NCBI GenBank assembly: GCA_019638795.1
Contig: JAHBTB010000001.1
Location: 496,001 to 560,000, forward strand
DNA from: Fimbriimonadaceae bacterium
GTDB taxonomy: Bacteria; Armatimonadota; Fimbriimonadia; Fimbriimonadales; Fimbriimonadaceae
DNA length: 64,000 nucleotides
Direction of reading: 5' to 3'
Shown piece by piece: positions 51,713-63,478 of this stretch (the stretch's first letter is position 1; each line of letters starts with the position of its first letter). The notes under the pieces are model-generated. The model saw only the letters and a list, made by a program, of their open reading frames with translations, ran no database searches and was not told where the DNA came from. The translations under genes and the position numbers were made by a program.

Positions 51713-54700
51713 TCACCTCATCAGGAAGTCTCCGATGGTCAAGGGCATCGGGACGGACGACGAGGCCTCGGAGATGTTCGGACGGTAGGGATAGATCCGC
51801 CGCGCCATGAAAGCGATGTGCCCGTCACGGTTCTGGGCGACGCCACGAACGGTGACAAACGGGTGGCAGACCACCTTGTGCCCGTCTCGCTGGTAGACGT
51901 CGTCAAAGCAGGTCACATTGAGGAGGCCGGTCTCGTCCTCGAGGTCAAAGAAGAGGACGCGCCGGCCACTCTCGGTCGGAGGGAACCTCAACCGGATCGG
52001 GTTGCCGACGACAAACACCGGCTCGGTGGTGGTCAAGCACGAGGCCTCGGCGGCGGTGAGCCCACCACGGGCGGTGACCCGGTCGCGCTCGAACGCCATC
52101 AGATGGCGGGCGACGTCGAGCCCCATCAACCGACGCTCCGCGACGGCCCTCTCGACTACGTTGAAGTCGTCGATTTCCAGAGGGAGCGGAGGGTCTTCGA
52201 ATTGGAGCGGGAGGCAATCCTCGGTGACCGGCGACCGCGCCAGGCCCAAAGCGTGGTCGACCATCCACAGAAGGGCGCGGCGATGGGGGGTCAGGCTGTC
52301 GAACGCACCGGCATGCACCAGGTTGCGGAGTTCGTCCTTCTCGGGCCGTACCCGGACGACAAAGTCAAAGAAAGAGTGGTACGGACGGCCTCGCAGTGAC
52401 CGGTCGACCGTCGCCACCGATAGGCCCGCGATCTGTCTGAGCGGGACACGCACGCCGCCGGCCGGGACCATGATCTTGGGGTCCTCGGTCGCTTTGACGT
52501 CCTCGACAGAGAAGCCCGCCTCACTCTTGTTGACGTCGGGTTGAAGGACCTGCACCCCCCGGACACGGGCTTCGTTACAAAGGGTGGCCGGGCCGTAGTA
52601 ACCAGCGGGTTGGGCGTCGAGAAGGGCGGCGAAGTACTGGGACGGGTAGTTCTGCTGGCAATAGATCGAGCGAACCGACACCTCGGCGAACGCGAGGGCA
52701 TGCCCCTCGGCGAAGCCATATCCCTTGAAACCCGAAACGAGGGCGTGGACCTCTTGAGCGACTTGGCGGCTGTACCCACGGGCGACGATCCGGGCGACGA
52801 CATCCTCGCACACCTGTCCGTCCCGGTGTCGGTCGTGGTGCTTCTGCACCGCTTCGCGGATCTCCTCGGCCTCGTCCCCGGTGTATCCGCCGAACTTCTC
52901 CAACAATTGGTCGATTTGTTCTTGGAAGACGACAATCCCCAAGGTCGGGCCAAGGATCACCTCAAGGTCAGGATGGACAAAGACAAACGGCTTACCCTGG
53001 CGGCGGGCGATGAACTCGTTGAGTTTCACGGCGCCACCGACCCCAGGCCTGATCCCCGCCTGGACGATACCGGCGTCCTTGAGGTTCCTCGTGCCGATGC
53101 GGATATGGGCTTGCCGCATCGCTGGCGATGCGGACTGGGGGACACCGACCAACTGTCCCGACCGCATCGCCCGGTACACACCGTCGTCGTCGAGGGGAAG
53201 GTCGCAGACGTCGAGTCCGTCGACCCGGCGCATCGTGCCACCCAGGACGTCGTTGCCACGCAGGCACAGTAAGTCGAACTTGTCGAAGGAGTGCTTCGCG
53301 CTCCGCTTGTCCCACTGCATGATCTTCACACCGTCCGCACCGGACAACTGGACGGGCACTGTGTCCGCGACGGGGCTCTTGGAGACGACGACGCCTGACG
53401 AGTGGGCACGCATGTTGCGCGGCAAGTCGGCAAGACGCTCGGCAAACTCGAAGACCCAGTGGTATCTCTCCCGCGGGATGTCGCTGTCGCGCAGTTCAGG
53501 GCGACTGTCCAAGGCCATGACAAGGCGCTCCGGCGAGACGCCGCCGTGGAGACGCTTCGAGAGATAGGAAAGGTGACTCTCGGGGATCCCCATCACCTTG
53601 CCGACCTCGCGCACGATGCCGCGGGTGCGGTACGTGCCGACCGCGGCGACCGTCGCGACATGGTCGTCTCCGTAACGCCGCACGAGGTGCTGGCGGACGT
53701 CCTCCCGGCGCGACGCCTCGAAATCGATGTCGATGTCCGGGCGTTTACCCCCGTCAGGGGGGAGGAACCGGTCGAAGTGCAGGTTGAACTCGAACGCGTC
53801 GATGCGCGAGATGCCCAGGCAATACGCGACCATGGAGTCGACCACAGAACCACGGCCGCTGAAAAGGATCCCCTCTCCTCTCGCCCACTCGCACATCTCC
53901 CATGCGATGAGGAAGTGCCGCGACCATCCGAGTTTGACCATCCGGTCAAGTTCGCGGCGGACTCTGGCCTTCTGTTGCCTTGAGAGCGCTCCATACCGGC
54001 ACCAAGCACCGTGCTCGACCACCTGGCGTAGGGCGGTGTCTTCGTCGGCACAGAACTGGGGAAGTTCGACCCGGCCGGGCAAGACGTCGCTGTCGCACCG
54101 GTCGGCGATGCGGCGGGACTCATCGATGAGACAAGGCTCGTCAGCGTAGACGGAAACGGCCTCCGAGCTGTGGCGCATGTGCCGCTCCCGGTTCAGTGAG
54201 CGCCTCGGTAGCCCACGGACCTGAGGCTGGGTCGGGTCACGCGCCGGTTTGCGTCCCTCGACCTCCTCGACCTTGCAAAGGGTGTCCACACACACCAGGA
54301 TGTCGTGGGCGGGATAGTGCGCCCGCTCGGCGGTCAACACCGGGCCGCCGGCCACACAGGTGACGCCAGTCTTGTCGGCCAATTGGTGGAGAAGCCGTCC
54401 GACATGAGGTTGCCATGGCAGTGACGTCCTTTCGACCTGCACCACGACGCTTTCTCTGCCGTAGAGGCTGACCAAACGGTCAATGCACTTCTTGGCGGAG
54501 CCATACTCCTTTCGTGCGACAAGGAGGTCGACGGGGCCGTTGCTTCCTCCCGTCAAACACAAGACGCCGTCTGTGTGACGGGCGAGGCGGTCCCAACTGG
54601 CCAAGGGGTATGTCCTCGGCTCACCCAGGCAACATTCGGTGACGAGCCGCGACAAGGAACGGTAACCGTCCGGGCATGTGGCGACCAAGACAAGGTCGCC

Positions 54701-55078
54701 GCCCTCGGCCAGTTCCACAGTCACACCGACCATCGGTCGCACCCCAGCTTCCTGCGCTGCCCGACAGAACTCGCGTGCTCCCGACAGCGAGAACCGGTCG
54801 GCAAGGAGCACCGCGCCATACCCCTTCTCGGCCGCCAACGCGGGGATCTGGGCGGCGATCATCGTCCCCCCTCGGGAATAGGCGCTGAGGGCATGGAGAA
54901 GGACCGCGTCACCCCTCGCGCTCGGGATGCTCGTGCCCGTCTCTACGACCGGCGTGACTGTCTCGCGGCGGACTCCCCGCTGGTCGATAAACCGGTGGAC
55001 CTCAATGTCGGGCCCGCCCTTCCACCACTCGCCCGCCTCACGCCATCGGGAGAGGGTCTCAGTTCCAGCCGGTCGCAT
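51713..55078 (-). CDS. dnaE2: DnaE2-type error-prone DNA polymerase III alpha subunit
   Basis: A 1,121-residue C-family polymerase. The catalytic PDIDIDFE acids, SGRGSVVDSMVAYCLGI and the FKGYGFAEGHALAFAE thumb motif are intact, and an OB-type domain (LRFPPTESGRRVLFFDLEDETGLLNVTC) ends it. The N-terminal PHP domain (about residues 58-130) has lost metal ligands: the usual His-x-His reads HAL and the later Asp-His reads Asp-Arg, so PHP proofreading is unlikely. About 57 residues of unknown sequence precede it. Pairing with an ImuB-like gene, overlapping by 20 bases, marks it as the DnaE2/ImuC mutasome polymerase rather than the replicative DnaE. Confidence 0.9.
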   Translation of the reverse strand: MRPAGTETLSRWREAGEWWKGGPDIEVHRFIDQRGVRRETVTPVVETGTSIPSARGDAVLLHALSAYSRGGTMIAAQIPALAAEKGYGAVLLADRFSLSGAREFCRAAQEAGVRPMVGVTVELAEGGDLVLVATCPDGYRSLSRLVTECCLGEPRTYPLASWDRLARHTDGVLCLTGGSNGPVDLLVARKEYGSAKKCIDRLVSLYGRESVVVQVERTSLPWQPHVGRLLHQLADKTGVTCVAGGPVLTAERAHYPAHDILVCVDTLCKVEEVEGRKPARDPTQPQVRGLPRRSLNRERHMRHSSEAVSVYADEPCLIDESRRIADRCDSDVLPGRVELPQFCADEDTALRQVVEHGAWCRYGALSRQQKARVRRELDRMVKLGWSRHFLIAWEMCEWARGEGILFSGRGSVVDSMVAYCLGISRIDAFEFNLHFDRFLPPDGGKRPDIDIDFEASRREDVRQHLVRRYGDDHVATVAAVGTYRTRGIVREVGKVMGIPESHLSYLSKRLHGGVSPERLVMALDSRPELRDSDIPRERYHWVFEFAERLADLPRNMRAHSSGVVVSKSPVADTVPVQLSGADGVKIMQWDKRSAKHSFDKFDLLCLRGNDVLGGTMRRVDGLDVCDLPLDDDGVYRAMRSGQLVGVPQSASPAMRQAHIRIGTRNLKDAGIVQAGIRPGVGGAVKLNEFIARRQGKPFVFVHPDLEVILGPTLGIVVFQEQIDQLLEKFGGYTGDEAEEIREAVQKHHDRHRDGQVCEDVVARIVARGYSRQVAQEVHALVSGFKGYGFAEGHALAFAEVSVRSIYCQQNYPSQYFAALLDAQPAGYYGPATLCNEARVRGVQVLQPDVNKSEAGFSVEDVKATEDPKIMVPAGGVRVPLRQIAGLSVATVDRSLRGRPYHSFFDFVVRVRPEKDELRNLVHAGAFDSLTPHRRALLWMVDHALGLARSPVTEDCLPLQFEDPPLPLEIDDFNVVERAVAERRLMGLDVARHLMAFERDRVTARGGLTAAEASCLTTTEPVFVVGNPIRLRFPPTESGRRVLFFDLEDETGLLNVTCFDDVYQRDGHKVVCHPFVTVRGVAQNRDGHIAFMARRIYPYRPNISEASSSVPMPLTIGDFLMR

Positions 55079-56708
55079 GACGCCATGCCCTCAAGACTTG
55101 CTCTCGACGTGGGGTTTCCACCTGGCTGGCCAGGACGACCGCACCGCTACCAAGCGACGAGCGCACCGCCGCCAGCGCGACGTCTTGGCCAGTCTGGACG
55201 GAAGCGGCAATGAGACTTTGTTGGGTGCTTTTGATCGGTTCCAGCCTGTCGAGCCGGGCGGTGAGGCGCACGATGTCCGGGCACTGGCGTTGTAGCTCCC
55301 CGACCAAATAGTCAAGTGACGCCGCGATGCGGTCCAGGTTGTGGACGGGGCGGTTGTATGTCCGGCTCAGTGTCCGCAGTCCCCCTCCCTCCTGCTCGGC
55401 GGTGATGACGACAAGCCCGGCCTGTCGTCCGGCGGAACGCTGGGCAAGCCCCCGCGACAACTCGGCAGCGGCTTCATGGAGCACCAAGGTGTCGTTCACC
55501 GGGGTGTCAAAGTGGACAGACTGTGCGACCGACTGAGGGGGGTATGACGCCACAACCTGGTCGCACGCCATGCCCCTGGCGGCGCGGACGATCTTATGGG
55601 CGTCATCACCAAACTGTGTGGTGAGCCATGCAGGGTCGACCGAACGGAGCGACCCGATGGTCTGGAAACCCAGTTCACGAAGACGCCCCCTATGCTCGAC
55701 GGTCGCCACGAGCAGGTTGTCCACCGGTTGGTCAGACAACGCGGCGATGGCGTCACTGTCATAGCCATAGGGGTCACCCTGGCGCGAGGCCAGGCGAGCT
55801 AGCCAGACCGACGGCCCGGTCCCGTATCGGAGCGACCCACACCCCGCCGCAGAGAGATCGGTGACGATCTTCGCGGCGATGTCGGCCGGGTCGGGGTGCG
55901 CCCCCAGACCGACGACCGCACGGTGGGAGTCGACCGGCTGGATGACGTCGCTGTAAGGGACGATGCGGTCGAGCCATCGCGCCTGCCTGAGGGGGTCATG
56001 GACAAGCTCCTTCACCTGGCAGCCGGGGACTAGGGGGAGGACGTGCTGTAGCCGTGTCCCCACCACGACGCCCCGCGCCTTCGCGGCAAAGTTCAGGTCC
56101 ACGACCACCCCACCGTCGACGACGACTTGGGGAGACGCGACCTGGTCGGCGTAGTACTGCTCCCACTCCAGCCAAAGGACAAACGGTCGTCGTCCCCTCC
56201 GTTCACCGGACCGCAGGTCCGCCAAACTCTTGCCGCTGAGCACCGACCGCGCCCCGGTGTGGGGCAGCGGCCCCGAAAGTCGTTTGACAAACCAACGCCC
56301 CCCACCACCGGACAGACGGAACCGTCCGCACAGCCGGACACCGAGGAGGTCGATCTCGAGCGTCCCCCGCTCAAGGCGGCCATATACCTCGCGCTGCCCC
56401 CCCGCGTCGGAGCGGTAGAGCCCGTGGTCCCACACGACCGACGCCCCTTTAGGTGACATTCCCTCAGCAAACAAGTCTGCTACTCTGGCGTCCTGGGCCC
56501 GTGCCGCCTCGACCGTCGCGTCCCACCTCGTTCGGGAGTGCGTGGTCGCGAGTACGAAGACCCGCCCCATGAGCGCCAGCCCCAGTTCGTAGTGGAGCCC
56601 ACCCTGCTCGGTCAGCTTGACGACATAGGGCCAAGCCGCACAGTCGTCTGGCGCGTCGAGGCCGGGTTCAAATCCCGGCGAAAAGGGTTGCCCATCGGGC
56701 GATAGCAT
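55059..56708 (-). CDS. imuB: ImuB-like inactive Y-family polymerase fused to a LigD-type phosphoesterase domain
   Basis: A 549-residue protein with two parts. Residues 28-145 resemble the LigD 3'-phosphoesterase fold (YVVKLTEQGGLHYELGLAL, SVVWDHGLYRSD, LLGVRLCGRFRL...WFVKRL), but only one active-site His is kept; the others read Thr, Glu and Gly. Residues 175 onward follow Y-family architecture (FVLWLEWEQYY, VDLNFAAKARGVVVGT, a helix-hairpin-helix near LRELGFQTIGSL). The palm Asp is Glu181 and the Ser-x-Asp-Glu motif reads VDSH, so it is probably not a polymerase, as in ImuB. The tail (TQQSLIA ... LRAWRHATGW) matches ImuB C-termini, with a possible beta-clamp motif. It is coupled to dnaE2; no imuA is adjacent. 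Confidence 0.8.
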   Translation of the reverse strand: MLSPDGQPFSPGFEPGLDAPDDCAAWPYVVKLTEQGGLHYELGLALMGRVFVLATTHSRTRWDATVEAARAQDARVADLFAEGMSPKGASVVWDHGLYRSDAGGQREVYGRLERGTLEIDLLGVRLCGRFRLSGGGGRWFVKRLSGPLPHTGARSVLSGKSLADLRSGERRGRRPFVLWLEWEQYYADQVASPQVVVDGGVVVDLNFAAKARGVVVGTRLQHVLPLVPGCQVKELVHDPLRQARWLDRIVPYSDVIQPVDSHRAVVGLGAHPDPADIAAKIVTDLSAAGCGSLRYGTGPSVWLARLASRQGDPYGYDSDAIAALSDQPVDNLLVATVEHRGRLRELGFQTIGSLRSVDPAWLTTQFGDDAHKIVRAARGMACDQVVASYPPQSVAQSVHFDTPVNDTLVLHEAAAELSRGLAQRSAGRQAGLVVITAEQEGGGLRTLSRTYNRPVHNLDRIAASLDYLVGELQRQCPDIVRLTARLDRLEPIKSTQQSLIAASVQTGQDVALAAVRSSLGSGAVVLASQVETPRREQVLRAWRHATGWN

Positions 56709-56715
56709 ATAAAAC

Positions 56716-56735
56716 TAGTATACATCAGTATACTA
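56716..56735. promoter_or_regulatory. Perfect palindromic operator over the imuB-dnaE2 promoter
   Basis: An 8-4-8 perfect inverted repeat, TAGTATAC then ATCA then GTATACTA. The minus-strand -10 box TATACT (56717-56722), 8 bases before the ATG at 56708, lies inside one arm, so a bound repressor would block transcription. LexA control of an SOS mutasome is the obvious candidate, but this exact motif is not one I can assign. Confidence 0.75.
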
Positions 56736-56745
56736 CAATCACCAC

Positions 56746-58560: not shown

Positions 58561-58776
58561 ATGAATGCAAAGGACATCGGGGATATGATTCGACAGCGCC
58601 GTAAACTGCTGAAGATCACTCAGAGCGACGTCGCTCGCCTCGCGTCTTGCTCCAAGCCTTCGGTGATCGCTGCTGAAAGCGGAAAACCGACGCTTCGCCT
58701 CGAGATCCTGCTTTCGATCCTCCACGTGTTGGGCTTGTCAATTCACTTGAATGATGTAGGGGCCGGGCGCAAATAA
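58561..58776 (+). CDS. hipB: HipB-type antitoxin, XRE-family HTH
   Basis: A 71-residue protein made almost wholly of one Cro/C1-type helix-turn-helix (IGDMIRQRRKLLKITQSDVARLASCSKPSVIAAESGK, then LRLEILLSILHVLGLSIHLN). It should bind and neutralise the HipA kinase and repress its own operon through the paired CAACG palindromes upstream. The stop overlaps the hipA start by 1 base (TAATG), the normal antitoxin-first order. The sequence is visibly less GC-rich than its neighbours, which suggests gain by transfer. Confidence 0.9.
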   Translation: MNAKDIGDMIRQRRKLLKITQSDVARLASCSKPSVIAAESGKPTLRLEILLSILHVLGLSIHLNDVGAGRK

Positions 58777-59933
58777 TGGCCGATGCAGACGTCTATCAGG
58801 GAAGTCAGTTAGTTGGCCATCTGGAGAGGCTGTCAACCGGTGTCCGGCTGTCGTTTGTCGAGGGAGTGTCGCTTCGACAGGGTTGGCTGGCCACTACATT
58901 GCCACATGAAACGGCGGACTTCATCGACCTGCCCTCCTTCTTTATGAACCTTCTTCCCGAAGGCGCGCGGCTCCAACTACTGCTTGAAAGCTCGAGATCG
59001 CGTGACGACTCGCTCGAACTACTGATGCGGGTCGGTTGGGACACGATTGGAGATGTAGCCGTCGTACCGGAAGGCAGATCTCCAGAAGATCAAGTAGCGC
59101 GAGTCAAAGCTACCGACCTCGGCAACGTCAGCTTCTGGCAGCTCTTCCACACGGGAGTTACTGAGTATCCGGACAGTGCAGTTCCCGGAGTACAAGAAAA
59201 GATATCTGCATCTACTGTCGCATTTGGTGTGAGGGCAGCAGGCATTCCGTCAGCAATCTTGAAGCTGAATCCGCCTAAGTATCCTCGACTTGTTCATAAC
59301 GAGGAGTTCTTCCTGCGCATGGCAAAAGCATGTCGCCTTGAGGTCAATCGAGCCGAGGTTGTTCACGACCGTGACGGAGAGCCTGGGTTGCTGGTCACCC
59401 GGTTCGACCGAGCGAAACGCGGGGGCGAGAAGTTGCACCAAGAGGACGGATGTCAGCTACTGAACAGCCCGCCCGCGCACAAATATCATCCACCCTTGCG
59501 AGCTATTGCCGATCGGGTGGCTGACGTTTGCACCTCAGGAGTCGTTGAAGTTGAGCGATTGCTGCGTCTCACCGCCTTCAGCTATCTCATCGGCAACTGT
59601 GATCTGCATGCGAAGAACATCAGCGTGCTGTGGGATGACGTCGTGCGCCTGAGTCCGGGATATGACCTGCTGAGCACACTTCCCTACGCGTTCTTGGATC
59701 GTCACATGGCTTTGAAGCTCCAAGGTAAGGATGATAATTTACGCAAGGGAGATTTTGTTGACTTCGGCAAAATCTACGGTCTATCAGACAAGGCAATTCT
59801 GCAAATGCTCGACACCCTCTGCGATCACGCTGAACCTTGGATCAGTCGAGTACCCGAAATCGGTTTTGACCTCGAAACGACGGAAGCCTTACAACGGGAG
59901 ATCGCCAAACGCATCTCGCAATTGCGGAAGTAA
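58776..59933 (+). CDS. hipA: HipA-type Ser/Thr kinase toxin
   Basis: A 385-residue kinase. The N-terminal subdomain (TTLPHETADFIDLPSFFMNLLPEGARL) is the HipA N1 domain. The ATP-binding and catalytic features follow: GVQEKISAS loop, LKLNPPKYPRLVHNEEFFLRMAKA, RFDR, the catalytic GNCDLHAKNIS and the metal-binding SPGYDLLS. HipA kinases inactivate glutamyl- or other aminoacyl-tRNA synthetases, or other targets, and slow growth. The kinase residues look intact, so the toxin may be active. Codon use is more AT-rich than in flanking genes. The 3' end lies 71 bases from the 3' end of tRNA-Ala. Confidence 0.92.
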   Translation: MADADVYQGSQLVGHLERLSTGVRLSFVEGVSLRQGWLATTLPHETADFIDLPSFFMNLLPEGARLQLLLESSRSRDDSLELLMRVGWDTIGDVAVVPEGRSPEDQVARVKATDLGNVSFWQLFHTGVTEYPDSAVPGVQEKISASTVAFGVRAAGIPSAILKLNPPKYPRLVHNEEFFLRMAKACRLEVNRAEVVHDRDGEPGLLVTRFDRAKRGGEKLHQEDGCQLLNSPPAHKYHPPLRAIADRVADVCTSGVVEVERLLRLTAFSYLIGNCDLHAKNISVLWDDVVRLSPGYDLLSTLPYAFLDRHMALKLQGKDDNLRKGDFVDFGKIYGLSDKAILQMLDTLCDHAEPWISRVPEIGFDLETTEALQREIAKRISQLRK

Positions 59934-60188: not shown

Positions 60189-60935
60189 TCAGTCTTCGGG
60201 CATGAGGCGCGCATAGTCCACGTCGCTGTTGCTCCAGCCACCGTCGATCTGCAGCACCTGACCGGTCATGTAGGGCACTCGGCCTTCGACGAGCGACACG
60301 ACGGCCGCGGCCACCTCGGCGGCCTCGGCGACGCGGCGGATCGGCAGGCGGCGCTCCACCATCTTCAGGCGTTCACCGACCAAAGAGTTGCGGCTCATTT
60401 CGGTGAACGTGAAGCCGGGGGCTACCGCGTTGACATAGATGCCGTACTGCCCCAGTTCGACGGCGCAGTTCCGCGTGAAGGCCTCGATGGCGGCCTTGCT
60501 CGCCGCATAAGCCGAGCGGTTGTAACCGCCGATCTTGGCATGGCCCGAGGAGATATTGACGATGTGGCCGCCCACGCCCGCGTCCACCCAGTGTCTGGCC
60601 ATGATCCGGCTTCCCGAGAACACGCCGCCCAAGTTGGTGTCCACGACCTGGTGGAACGTCTCGGGGTCGGTGTCCAGCACGCTACTGCGATGGATGACCC
60701 CGGCGTTGTTGACGATGGCGGCGGGCATGCCGAGGTCGCGGACGACTTCGCCGACCACCCTTTCCATGGCCGCGTAGTCACCGACGTCGACCGCCCAGGC
60801 CGGGCCCTCCGCTTCGCGTAAGCCCTCGGCATCAATGTCGAGCCGGGCGACGTCCCATGGCCCCTGGGCGAACGCCTCGGCGATGGCCCGGCCGATCCCC
60901 TTCGCCGCCCCCGTCACGACTACCACGCGGTGCAC
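60189..60935 (-). CDS. Short-chain dehydrogenase/reductase
   Basis: A 248-residue classical SDR using NAD(P). The cofactor motif VVTGAAKGIG is at the N-terminus, with NNAG at mid-sequence and the catalytic Ser (NISSGH) and YAASK (Tyr-x-x-x-Lys) in place. VNAVAPGF and the end GQVLQIDGGWS are also normal. An acidic residue after strand 2 (ARLDIDAEGL) favours NAD over NADP. The GTG start at 60935 gives the normal length and has a CATAAT box 6 bases upstream; longer upstream frames are shadows of the divergent gene. Substrate unknown. Confidence 0.92.
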   Translation of the reverse strand: MHRVVVVTGAAKGIGRAIAEAFAQGPWDVARLDIDAEGLREAEGPAWAVDVGDYAAMERVVGEVVRDLGMPAAIVNNAGVIHRSSVLDTDPETFHQVVDTNLGGVFSGSRIMARHWVDAGVGGHIVNISSGHAKIGGYNRSAYAASKAAIEAFTRNCAVELGQYGIYVNAVAPGFTFTEMSRNSLVGERLKMVERRLPIRRVAEAAEVAAAVVSLVEGRVPYMTGQVLQIDGGWSNSDVDYARLMPED

Positions 60936-60941
60936 CCGCCC

Positions 60942-60947
60942 ATTATG
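60942..60947 (-). promoter_or_regulatory. -10 box, leaderless type
   Basis: CATAAT on the minus strand, 6 bases before the GTG start of the SDR gene. Confidence 0.5.
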
Positions 60948-60999
60948 GGGGGCCGGACCGGCGTCGTGCGACCGTGTGGCCGACCCGGCCGTTCGGCCG

Positions 61000-61005
61000 C
61001 ATAAT
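61000..61005 (+). promoter_or_regulatory. -10 box, leaderless type
   Basis: CATAAT, 6 bases before the ATG of the CCA-adding enzyme gene. Identical in sequence and spacing to the divergent SDR box 53 bases away. Confidence 0.5.
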
Positions 61006-61011
61006 CTCATC

Positions 61012-62382
61012 ATGAGGACCGTGCCCGTCCCCGCGGTGGCCCGTACCGTCGCACAGGCCCTGCATGGCACGGCGTTCGAGGGCAGAGTCCACATGGTGGG
61101 GGGTGCCGTGCGCGACCTGCTGCTTGGCATGCCTGCCCCAAAGGACGTGGACCTGGTCGTCGAAGGCGACGCGACGGCTTTGGCCCAGACCTTGTGGGAA
61201 CGAGGGGTGGCCGAGCACCCGCCCACCCTGTACGCAAACTTCGGCACCGCCCAAGTCAAGGTGGAAGGGGTCGTCGTCGAAGCGGTGACCGCCCGAAAGG
61301 AGTCATACCGGGGTGACTCGCGCAAACCCACGGTCGAACCCGCGTCGCTCCTGGAAGACGCCCAGCGGCGCGATTTCACCGTCAACGCCTTGCTCTTAGA
61401 CCCGGAAACGGGCGAGGTAACCGACCCTCTGGGCCAAGGCTTGGCCGACTTGGAGTCCCGGACCCTGCGCACTCCCCTCGGACCGGCCGAGACGTTCAGC
61501 CAAGACCCACTCCGCATGCTCCGGGCGGTCAGGTTCCGGTGGCAGGTCGGCCTGACACCAGCCCCTGGCCTGGTCGAGGCGGTGCGTGAGTCCGCGCCTC
61601 GACTGGCGATCATCAGCGTCGAGCGAATTGCCGCAGAGCTCGGCACGATGCTGGGCCGGACAACCGCGTCCGACGCGCTCCGTGACCTGATGGACTGGGG
61701 TCTGCTCGACCAGTTCTGGCCCGAGTTCGGGGCGACGCGAGGCGTCGACCAAGGCTCCTACCACCACCTCGACGTATGGGAGCACACGTTGTTGGTCGTC
61801 CGGTCGGCCCAGATCGACGACCTGGTCACGAACCTGGGTTGCCTGTTCCACGACGTCGGTAAACCGGCGACGCGGAGCGTCGAGCCGGGAGGCAAAGTGC
61901 GCTTCTTCGACCACGAGAACGTCGGGGCGGAGACGGCCCGGGAGATGCTGCAACGACTCCGGTTCCCCGGCGAGACGGTCACCCGCGTCTGCCGCCTCGT
62001 CAAGAACCACATGAGGCTGGGGTCCGCGGCCGTCTTCACCCCGTCGGCGGCCCGGCGGGTGGTCCGCGACCTTGGAGAAGACGTGGGGCGCCTCCTGGAC
62101 TTGGTCGACGCCGACGTGCGTTCCCTCCGTCCAGGGGTGGACGTGCACTTGAACTTAGGGAAAGTGCGCCAGACCGTCGCCATGGTGCAGCAGGCGACAC
62201 CGGCCGACCGCCTTGTCAGCCCCCTGGACGGCCGCGAGATCATGGCTGTCGCTGGGGTCGGGCCCGGCCCTGAAGTCGCCCACCTGAAGCGTCGCCTGAC
62301 CGAAGAGGTGCTCGAGGGGCGCATCCAGACCGGAGACAAGGCGGCGGCCAGGGCGTTTTTGCGGTCGATCAAGTCAAACTGA
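61012..62382 (+). CDS. cca: CCA tRNA nucleotidyltransferase with HD domain
   Basis: A class II tRNA nucleotidyltransferase/poly(A) polymerase-family enzyme of 456 residues. The head domain has MVGGAVRDLLLG followed by KDVDLVV (catalytic Asp pair) and RRDFTVNALLLD. The neck and body follow with TFSQDPLRMLRAVRF and ISVERIAAEL. A C-terminal HD domain (HHLDVWEHTLLVV, CLFHDVGKPATR) may add phosphatase or phosphodiesterase activity. It repairs or adds the 3' CCA of tRNAs. Since the tRNA-Ala encoded nearby already carries CCA, repair is a likely role; a split A-adding versus CC-adding enzyme cannot be excluded. Confidence 0.93.
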   Translation: MRTVPVPAVARTVAQALHGTAFEGRVHMVGGAVRDLLLGMPAPKDVDLVVEGDATALAQTLWERGVAEHPPTLYANFGTAQVKVEGVVVEAVTARKESYRGDSRKPTVEPASLLEDAQRRDFTVNALLLDPETGEVTDPLGQGLADLESRTLRTPLGPAETFSQDPLRMLRAVRFRWQVGLTPAPGLVEAVRESAPRLAIISVERIAAELGTMLGRTTASDALRDLMDWGLLDQFWPEFGATRGVDQGSYHHLDVWEHTLLVVRSAQIDDLVTNLGCLFHDVGKPATRSVEPGGKVRFFDHENVGAETAREMLQRLRFPGETVTRVCRLVKNHMRLGSAAVFTPSAARRVVRDLGEDVGRLLDLVDADVRSLRPGVDVHLNLGKVRQTVAMVQQATPADRLVSPLDGREIMAVAGVGPGPEVAHLKRRLTEEVLEGRIQTGDKAAARAFLRSIKSN

Positions 62383-62392
62383 TCTGGCAACC

Positions 62393-63478
62393 ATGGGACC
62401 CCGCGAACGCCAGTCCGGCCAAAGGTTCTTGTTCTGGGGATTTGTCGTCGCCGTCATCGTGCTGGGTGCGCTCATTGTCGCGCCGTTTGTGCCTGCGTTG
62501 ACTCTGGCGACCGTCCTCGCCGTTCTGCTGGCCCCTTGGCGAGACCGACTCCTGGCCAGGGGCAAATCGGTCACCGCGTCGTCGCTCGTCCCCGTCCTGC
62601 TTGCCACCGCCTTGGTGTTCACGCCGCTTGTCACCGCGGTCGGGGTGGCCGGTGCCCAGGCATTCGGCTACGTCCAGTCGCTCAGCGACGACCCTGCCGA
62701 GAGCGAGACGACACCGGTCCTCGACCGGATCGCCGCCGATATGGACCACACTCTGGCCCCGGTGTTCAAGCAGGTCGGGGCATCGAACTTCTCCGTCCAG
62801 GCCTGGCTTGCCGAGAACCGACCGCAACTCATCCAGACCGTCCGCGGCCCGGTGGTCGACGGGTTAGGCCGGTTCCTCAACGGAATCTTGCAAGTCGTCG
62901 TCGCGGTGATGACCGCATTCTTCGGCCTGCGCGACGGCAAAAACCTGGTCGGGCCGGTTTGCGAGTGCGTCCCCCTGCCCCCTGAGCAGACCCGGGAGAT
63001 CCTCAACCGGACAGCCCAGACGATCCGGTCGGTCTTCGTCGGCGTCGTCGCGGTCGCGTTCGTCCAAGGGGCGTTGGCCGGGGTCGCCTATCTGGTCGCC
63101 GGCGTGCACGGCTGGTTGCTGTGGACCTTGGCCACGTGCTTCTTTGCCATGGTCCCCCTCTTGGGCCCGCCGATCGTCTACGTGCCCGTCGCCGCTTTCC
63201 TTGCCGTGCAGGGACGGGTCGGCCCCGCCGTCGGCGTCTTGGCGTGGGGGTTCCTCGTCGTCTCCAACATCGACAACTTTCTGCGCCCACTGATTGTAGG
63301 GGCCCAAACCAAGCTCCATCCCATGGCGATCTTCTTCGCCCTTGTCGGCGGGGTGCTGTTCATGGGGCCCAGTGGTCTGATGGCCGGTCCGGTGGTGCTC
63401 ACTCTCCTCATCGGGCTCTCCGAGATAGTCCGTGAGGTCAAGTCGAACCAAACCCAGCCGGTAGACTCGCCCGCATGA
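62393..63478 (+). CDS. AI-2E family transporter (PerM/YdiK-like)
   Basis: A 361-residue membrane protein of the AI-2E exporter family. It has about eight helices, with the typical DUF20 features: N-terminal hairpin helices, a mid-protein amphipathic region (PVLDRIAADMDHTLAPVFKQ), the MTAFFGLRDGK segment and a C-terminal YVPVAAFLAV ... NIDNFLRPLIVGAQTKLHPMAIFFALVGG block. Members export autoinducer-2, Na+ or other solutes, and the substrate is uncertain. It starts 10 bases after cca and its stop overlaps the next gene by 4 bases, so the three form a likely operon. Confidence 0.92.
   Translation: MGPRERQSGQRFLFWGFVVAVIVLGALIVAPFVPALTLATVLAVLLAPWRDRLLARGKSVTASSLVPVLLATALVFTPLVTAVGVAGAQAFGYVQSLSDDPAESETTPVLDRIAADMDHTLAPVFKQVGASNFSVQAWLAENRPQLIQTVRGPVVDGLGRFLNGILQVVVAVMTAFFGLRDGKNLVGPVCECVPLPPEQTREILNRTAQTIRSVFVGVVAVAFVQGALAGVAYLVAGVHGWLLWTLATCFFAMVPLLGPPIVYVPVAAFLAVQGRVGPAVGVLAWGFLVVSNIDNFLRPLIVGAQTKLHPMAIFFALVGGVLFMGPSGLMAGPVVLTLLIGLSEIVREVKSNQTQPVDSPA
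63462..63467 (+). promoter_or_regulatory. -10 box, leaderless type
   Basis: TAGACT inside the end of the AI-2E gene, 7 bases before the GH172 ATG. It could add a separate transcript to read-through from upstream. Confidence 0.35.

Follow-up and report, generated by a model that had tools for sequence, protein, structure and literature searches.

Why should a degraded 3'-phosphoesterase (PE) of the LigD type be joined to an inactive Y-family polymerase directly beside a dnaE2-type gene? The question is raised by one open reading frame in a 64,000-nucleotide stretch of DNA from a Fimbriimonadaceae bacterium (the window; C1:496001-560000 of genome G000, which is 2.7 Mb in size and 99% complete). 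The original prediction for this locus described an ImuB-like protein with an N-terminal PE fold, both catalytic centers degraded, acting as a structural adaptor for DnaE2 and perhaps replacing ImuA. Table 1 lists the features concerned. Elsewhere in the window, a HipA-type kinase gene with a fused HipA N-terminal domain lies near mod genes (58776-59933, + strand).

Table 1. Features of the fusion locus and of related operator loci
Feature	Coordinates	Strand	Remark
Fusion ORF, pseudo-PE and inactive Y-family polymerase (iPolY), 549 aa	55059..56708	-	Intact in the window
N-terminal leader, residues 1-25	56634..56708	-	Shared in part with standalone PE of G124 (SPGFE)
LigD-type 3'-phosphoesterase (PE) domain, residues 26-164	56217..56633	-	H48 the sole catalytic residue left
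iPolY, residues ~172-549	55062..56195	-	Catalytic carboxylates replaced
QQSLI, candidate beta-clamp motif, residues 496-500	55209..55223	-	Alignment reading; QSDLF in G050
RecA-NT-like motif DVALAAVRSSLGSGAVVLAS, residues 509-528	55125..55184	-	Alignment reading
DnaE2-type polymerase gene	51713..55078	-	20 bp overlap with fusion stop
Perfect palindrome TAGTATAC-TGAT-GTATACTA, SOS-like box	56716..56735	.	-27 of fusion ATG
CCA-type nucleotidyltransferase	60835..62382	+	45% identical homologue adjoins standalone PE of G050
AI-2E-type membrane protein	62393..63478	+	Next gene in synteny shared with G050
Candidate SOS operator copies, Fimbriimonadaceae	Loci L143, L153, L155, L136, L093, L092		

The two halves of the fusion protein

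General models recognized the N-terminal part weakly: Pfam LigD_N matched residues 58-132 of the fusion ORF at E 8e-4, under the cut-off, and NCBIfam LigD_PE matched residues 28-132 at E 7.5e-4. A profile built on nine standalone PEs from within the family, with the window sequence left out, matched residues 26-164 at E 3e-15 (52.7 bits) and found nothing in 2000 shuffled copies or in any other window ORF. The standalone PE of G124 alone aligned to residues 7-141 with 69 bits. Residues 1-172 were modeled with AlphaFold (mean pLDDT 79), and the model matched only PE structures at significance when compared with the PDB, including the Pseudomonas aeruginosa PE (3n9b; Z 17.3, 2.0 A over 136 residues); the model is confirmatory and not independent, since its input alignment consisted of PEs. 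Profile and model together place residues ~26-164, by descent, in the LigD-type 3'-phosphoesterase superfamily as a predicted pseudoenzyme and not a PE enzyme, so the fold proposed in the original prediction held up. The domain ends in ARSVLSGKSLAD, a tail typical of standalone PEs, and its net charge is only +4.

We surveyed the active-site residues defined for the P. aeruginosa PE, which is inactivated by alanine at H42, H48, D50, H84 or Y88 (PMC8656161). The window PE carries H42T, D50E, R52G, S61V, E82Q, H84A and Y88D, leaving H48 as the only one of the catalytic residues H42, H48, D50, R52, H84 and Y88, in agreement with the single surviving residue originally proposed. H42, H48, D50, R52, S61, H84 and Y88 are all present in the standalone PEs of G124 and G059. 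In the PEs of G007, G017 and G112, Y88 is the one catalytic residue of the six that is lost, replaced by C, C and L, respectively (L079, L081, L125); Y88 is essential in the P. aeruginosa enzyme, and the activity of these three PEs is uncertain. The standalone PE of G050 is partly degraded (D50Y, H84D, Y88F). Another standalone PE, in G121 (L128 6438-6980, - strand), looks degenerate, with FVLEQRTEQMCWDLR in the H42/H48 region, suggesting that PE decay may have occurred more than once. Identity between the window PE and that of G124 is 50% in the barrel half and 28% in the active-site half (permutation p 0.015, for a single comparison chosen after the alignment was seen).

The polymerase half matched Pol IV models at E values down to 4e-13. 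It has E181, and D260-S261-H262-R263 where S-I-D-E is expected, which bears out the claim that the second catalytic center is degraded as well. The catalytic carboxylates are also replaced in all aligned iPolY relatives; the DinB of the same genome differs in this respect. Since these carboxylates are gone throughout while the PE sites are graded, polymerase inactivity is a trait of the family and the loss of the PE site is recent and graded. Two sequences gave a structural model of the iPolY half that was of low quality (pLDDT 57, low global TM) and was used only for its Foldseek matches, all of which were Y-family proteins.

The polymerase half was less readily reconciled with ImuB. The protein stops about 20 residues past the RecA-NT-like sequence ALAAVRSSLGSGAVVLA, and no ImuB-C domain was found in it among C-terminal Pfam domains at E<=1, contrary to the ImuB-type tail that had been proposed. 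The upstream regions inspected in about 24 genomes, and the window itself, contained no recognizable imuA, and G000 had no second RecA-like protein at E<=0.1, although ImuA could escape the Pfam RecA model used in that search. We therefore use the name iPolY rather than ImuB: of the ImuB-like designation, the inactive Y-family core stands and ImuB sensu stricto does not. The RecA-NT-like tail, a motif described in PMC6511836, can be made out clearly on visual inspection of every aligned relative, whether or not a PE is present. Replacement of ImuA by the PE domain is accordingly not needed to account for the locus, and we dropped it as unnecessary.

DnaE2 systems that do without ImuA and ImuB have been described (PMC12926913, PMC6511836); in them, DnaE2 is paired with an inactive PolY that carries a RecA-NT motif. 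The polymerase half is best classed, from its sequence features, as an inactive PolY of this DnaE2-iPolY-RecA type. The window protein resembles the DnaE2B-iPolY-RecA systems (scDinB2/gbDinB2 type) of those papers in its inactive Y-family subunit, its RecA-NT-like tail, the lack of ImuA and ImuB-C and the adjoining dnaE2 gene; it differs in its N-terminal pseudo-PE. The candidate clamp motif in Table 1 follows the definition of PMC12926913. The locus is similar to the ImuA-ImuB-DnaE2 mutasome in that an inactive PolY scaffold is encoded next to dnaE2 in an operon apparently under damage control, but it has neither imuA nor the ImuB-C beta-barrel and carries the extra PE domain. Relative to the PE domain of LigD and to standalone archaeal and bacterial PEs (3n9b, 5dmp), the window PE has the same fold, length and RSVLTGR-type tail; unlike them, it has lost its catalytic residues, is fused to iPolY and lies behind an SOS-type box instead of in an NHEJ context. 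The small subunits UmuD' (Pol V) and YqjX offer only an analogy, as small non-catalytic beta domains on a Y-family mutasome, their fold and origin being unrelated to those of the window PE.

Standalone relatives and the origin of the fusion

We found iPolY in about 60 genomes of the order, mostly at 25-35% identity and with the PE segment absent; these proteins begin where the window protein is at residue ~165-190. The fusion itself was seen only in the window genome, and a scan of genome contigs with the full-length fusion protein gave no match. The related-genome search suggested in the original prediction thus produced no second fusion but did uncover separate PE genes beside iPolY-dnaE2. 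In Armatimonadetes bacterium 55-13 (G007), a 174-aa PE is followed by iPolY (4-bp overlap) and dnaE2 (20-bp overlap), and in G112 the PE gene is divergent from iPolY-dnaE2, about 230 bp apart. At the joint in the window protein, the PE C-terminal tail ARSVLSGKSLADL corresponds to DRSVLTGRQIGDL in the 55-13 PE, and the iPolY N-terminus RRPFVLWLEWEQYY to MRRHILFVALDRFY in the 55-13 iPolY. Because the RSVLTGR tail of the window PE is also the ending of standalone PE genes, and because PE adjoins iPolY-dnaE2 in 55-13 and G112, comparison of these sequences shows that in the window protein a PE that was once a separate, SOS-boxed gene has been truly fused to the iPolY of an iPolY-DnaE2 pair. Two observations from other genomes concern standalone genes: in G017, iPolY is broken by several stops and the PE gene is open and has a box (L088 / G017:C1:29402-29923), and in G101 about 2.4 kb separates the PE gene from a radical SAM gene of SPL/Rv2578c-like type (L126 6626-7210, 9633-10481).

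In a PE tree, the window sequence grouped with G124 and G050 (98/94), both standalone, apart from all LigD PEs, and formed the longest branch (3.81). A joint full-length alignment split iPolY and was dropped. The best iPolY match to the window was that of G050, whose PE gene is cut short by the end of its contig and has CCA-nucleotidyltransferase and AI-2E genes as neighbors; these share 45% and 35% identity, respectively, with their counterparts in the window (60835-63478). Their relative orientation is the same; five genes intervene in the window, unlike in G050. The iPolY-dnaE2 pair of G050 is located elsewhere than its PE gene. It is plausible, judging from this gene order, that iPolY-dnaE2 moved behind the PE gene and that the two were then fused.

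The association of PE with the mutasome is not general, since 24 loci with standalone PEs from Nitrospira, Bacteroidota and others had no DnaE2 or iPolY nearby, and 274 kb of sequence from such loci contained no copy of the box with <=2 mismatches. Elsewhere in the phylum, none of the PEs for which 1.5 kb flanks were included lay beside iPolY or dnaE2.

The SOS-like box and its predicted regulon

The SOS-like palindrome TAGTAGACNNNNNTATACTA, the family form of the box, was present whole or as its left half upstream of most iPolY-dnaE2 operons. Its best match beat shuffled sequences (0-4 of 300) before eight of ten standalone PE genes and the window gene. Among the standalone PE genes, boxes were located at -24 to -54; those of G059, G110 (Fimbriimonadaceae ACE_ARM7), G017, G112, G124 and G050 had 0-2 mismatches, and those of G113, G101 and G007 matched less well. 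No box preceded the LigD gene of G000 itself or the LigD-type PE of G016. The position in the window, -27, is the same in G050 and G124. Near copies of the box in G000 were few, and control matches none.

Other genes preceded by the box include recN and an HTH-S24 LexA-like repressor in G059 (Fimbriimonadaceae ACE_ARM8), NrdB and an Rv2578c-like radical SAM protein in G000, the latter a homologue of the G101 gene mentioned above, and a B12 ribonucleotide reductase in G050. By gene content, this set is an SOS-type regulon, with binding by a LexA-like repressor predicted. The box also occurs before a sigma70-r4-like HTH protein beside gcvT, where it is kept in G000 and G018, and before DinB-superfamily proteins. 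In many iPolY operons, a TATAAT sequence located 10-20 bp ahead of the ATG overlaps the box, and no obvious Shine-Dalgarno sequence is present (window 56690-56740 and the upstream regions of relatives), which suggests that these operons may give leaderless mRNA.

Possible roles of the degraded phosphoesterase domain

We judge it an even call that the pseudo-PE works without catalysis in an iPolY-DnaE2-RecA mutasome, as a module for docking or for holding DNA ends, which makes the structural adaptor of the original prediction our leading reading; the overlap of the dnaE2-type gene with the fusion stop agrees with the DnaE2 partnership proposed there. Upon DNA damage, a LexA-like repressor would leave the palindrome, and the fusion protein and DnaE2 would be made together. 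The iPolY half would act as a scaffold, binding the beta clamp through its QxxL motif, RecA through the RecA-NT-like tail, and DnaE2. The pseudo-PE would no longer trim 3' ends. Its rigid barrel might have been retained for putative contacts with DnaE2, the clamp, RecA or DNA, either docking on another component of the mutasome or keeping the primer 3' end or DNA close to DnaE2, or doing both. The PE-iPolY-dnaE2 operon in 55-13 and the divergent pair in G112 suggest that such a role could have been inherited from a PE once working alongside the mutasome. The better-kept barrel half, the intact frame, the confident fold and a codon-position GC content (0.72/0.53/0.76) like that of the remainder of the fusion gene count for this reading. 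Against it stand the restriction of the fusion to one genome, the longest branch, which fits relaxed constraint, the low net charge of the domain (+4), and the roughly 60 relatives that use iPolY-DnaE2 with no PE attached.

These same points, the long branch, the single fusion and the many relatives without PE, bring a second account close behind, and we regard it as quite possible, if less probable. Here, iPolY-dnaE2 moved behind an SOS-boxed standalone PE gene that was already losing function, the benefit being the promoter and the PE remaining as a translated, decaying leader. G050, the closest iPolY relative, fits this sequence of events well: its standalone PE already lacks D50, H84 and Y88 and sits beside the same CCA and AI-2E genes, with iPolY-dnaE2 elsewhere, and the box position is identical in the window, G050 and G124. 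A decaying leader is harder to square with 165 codons in an intact frame of normal codon-position composition, with a barrel half conserved better than the active-site half, or with the confident PE fold.

It is improbable that iPolY is made alone from an internal start and that the upstream PE frame is incidental. The iPolY of relatives does start at that point, but in the window gene that point offers no ATG, GTG or TTG in frame (the nearest are GTG156 and TTG162), and the box and the PE homology put the start at 56708. The original prediction had allowed for homologues lacking the segment through such a start; homologues do lack the PE, but not for this reason, because homology to the G124 protein begins at residue 7 and the upstream ATG has the box at -27. 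Continued action of the window PE on 3' ends through an altered metal site is very unlikely: H48 and a conservative D50E remain, but H42, R52, H84 and Y88 are gone, alanine at H42, H48, D50, H84 or Y88 inactivates the P. aeruginosa PE (PMC8656161), and G000 also retains a LigD with an intact-looking PE. Least likely of all is an assembly artefact joining two loci, for although only a single genome has the fusion and G001, from the same genus, is interrupted by a contig edge and so offers no confirmation, the locus is deep in a 703 kb contig and the genome is 99% complete, with an in-frame join exactly at the domain boundary and the promoter at standalone-PE spacing.

As the original prediction had supposed, we found no description of this fusion: no paper in the open literature joined PE with ImuB or DnaE2 (subscription journals and supplements lie outside that coverage), no such PE domain was found in the main texts of PMC12926913 and PMC6511836, and no experimental study of an ImuA-less mutasome of this kind was found in the open literature. 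The operon, the shared operator and the fusion tie an NHEJ-type 3'-end-processing fold to DnaE2 mutagenesis, and the box provides a candidate SOS operator for the Fimbriimonadaceae. A naturally dead PE, together with intact-looking homologues, offers a means to test whether the mutasome needs 3'-end handling. Returning to the docking or end-holding reading, we tentatively suggest for the family as a whole that a damage-induced standalone PE may be a subunit of the iPolY-DnaE2-RecA mutasome that cleans or holds 3' ends for error-prone synthesis, and that in the window lineage it may have been fused to iPolY and made purely structural. If so, this lineage would have arrived at a small mutasome subunit by a route independent of UmuD', YqjX and ImuB-C.
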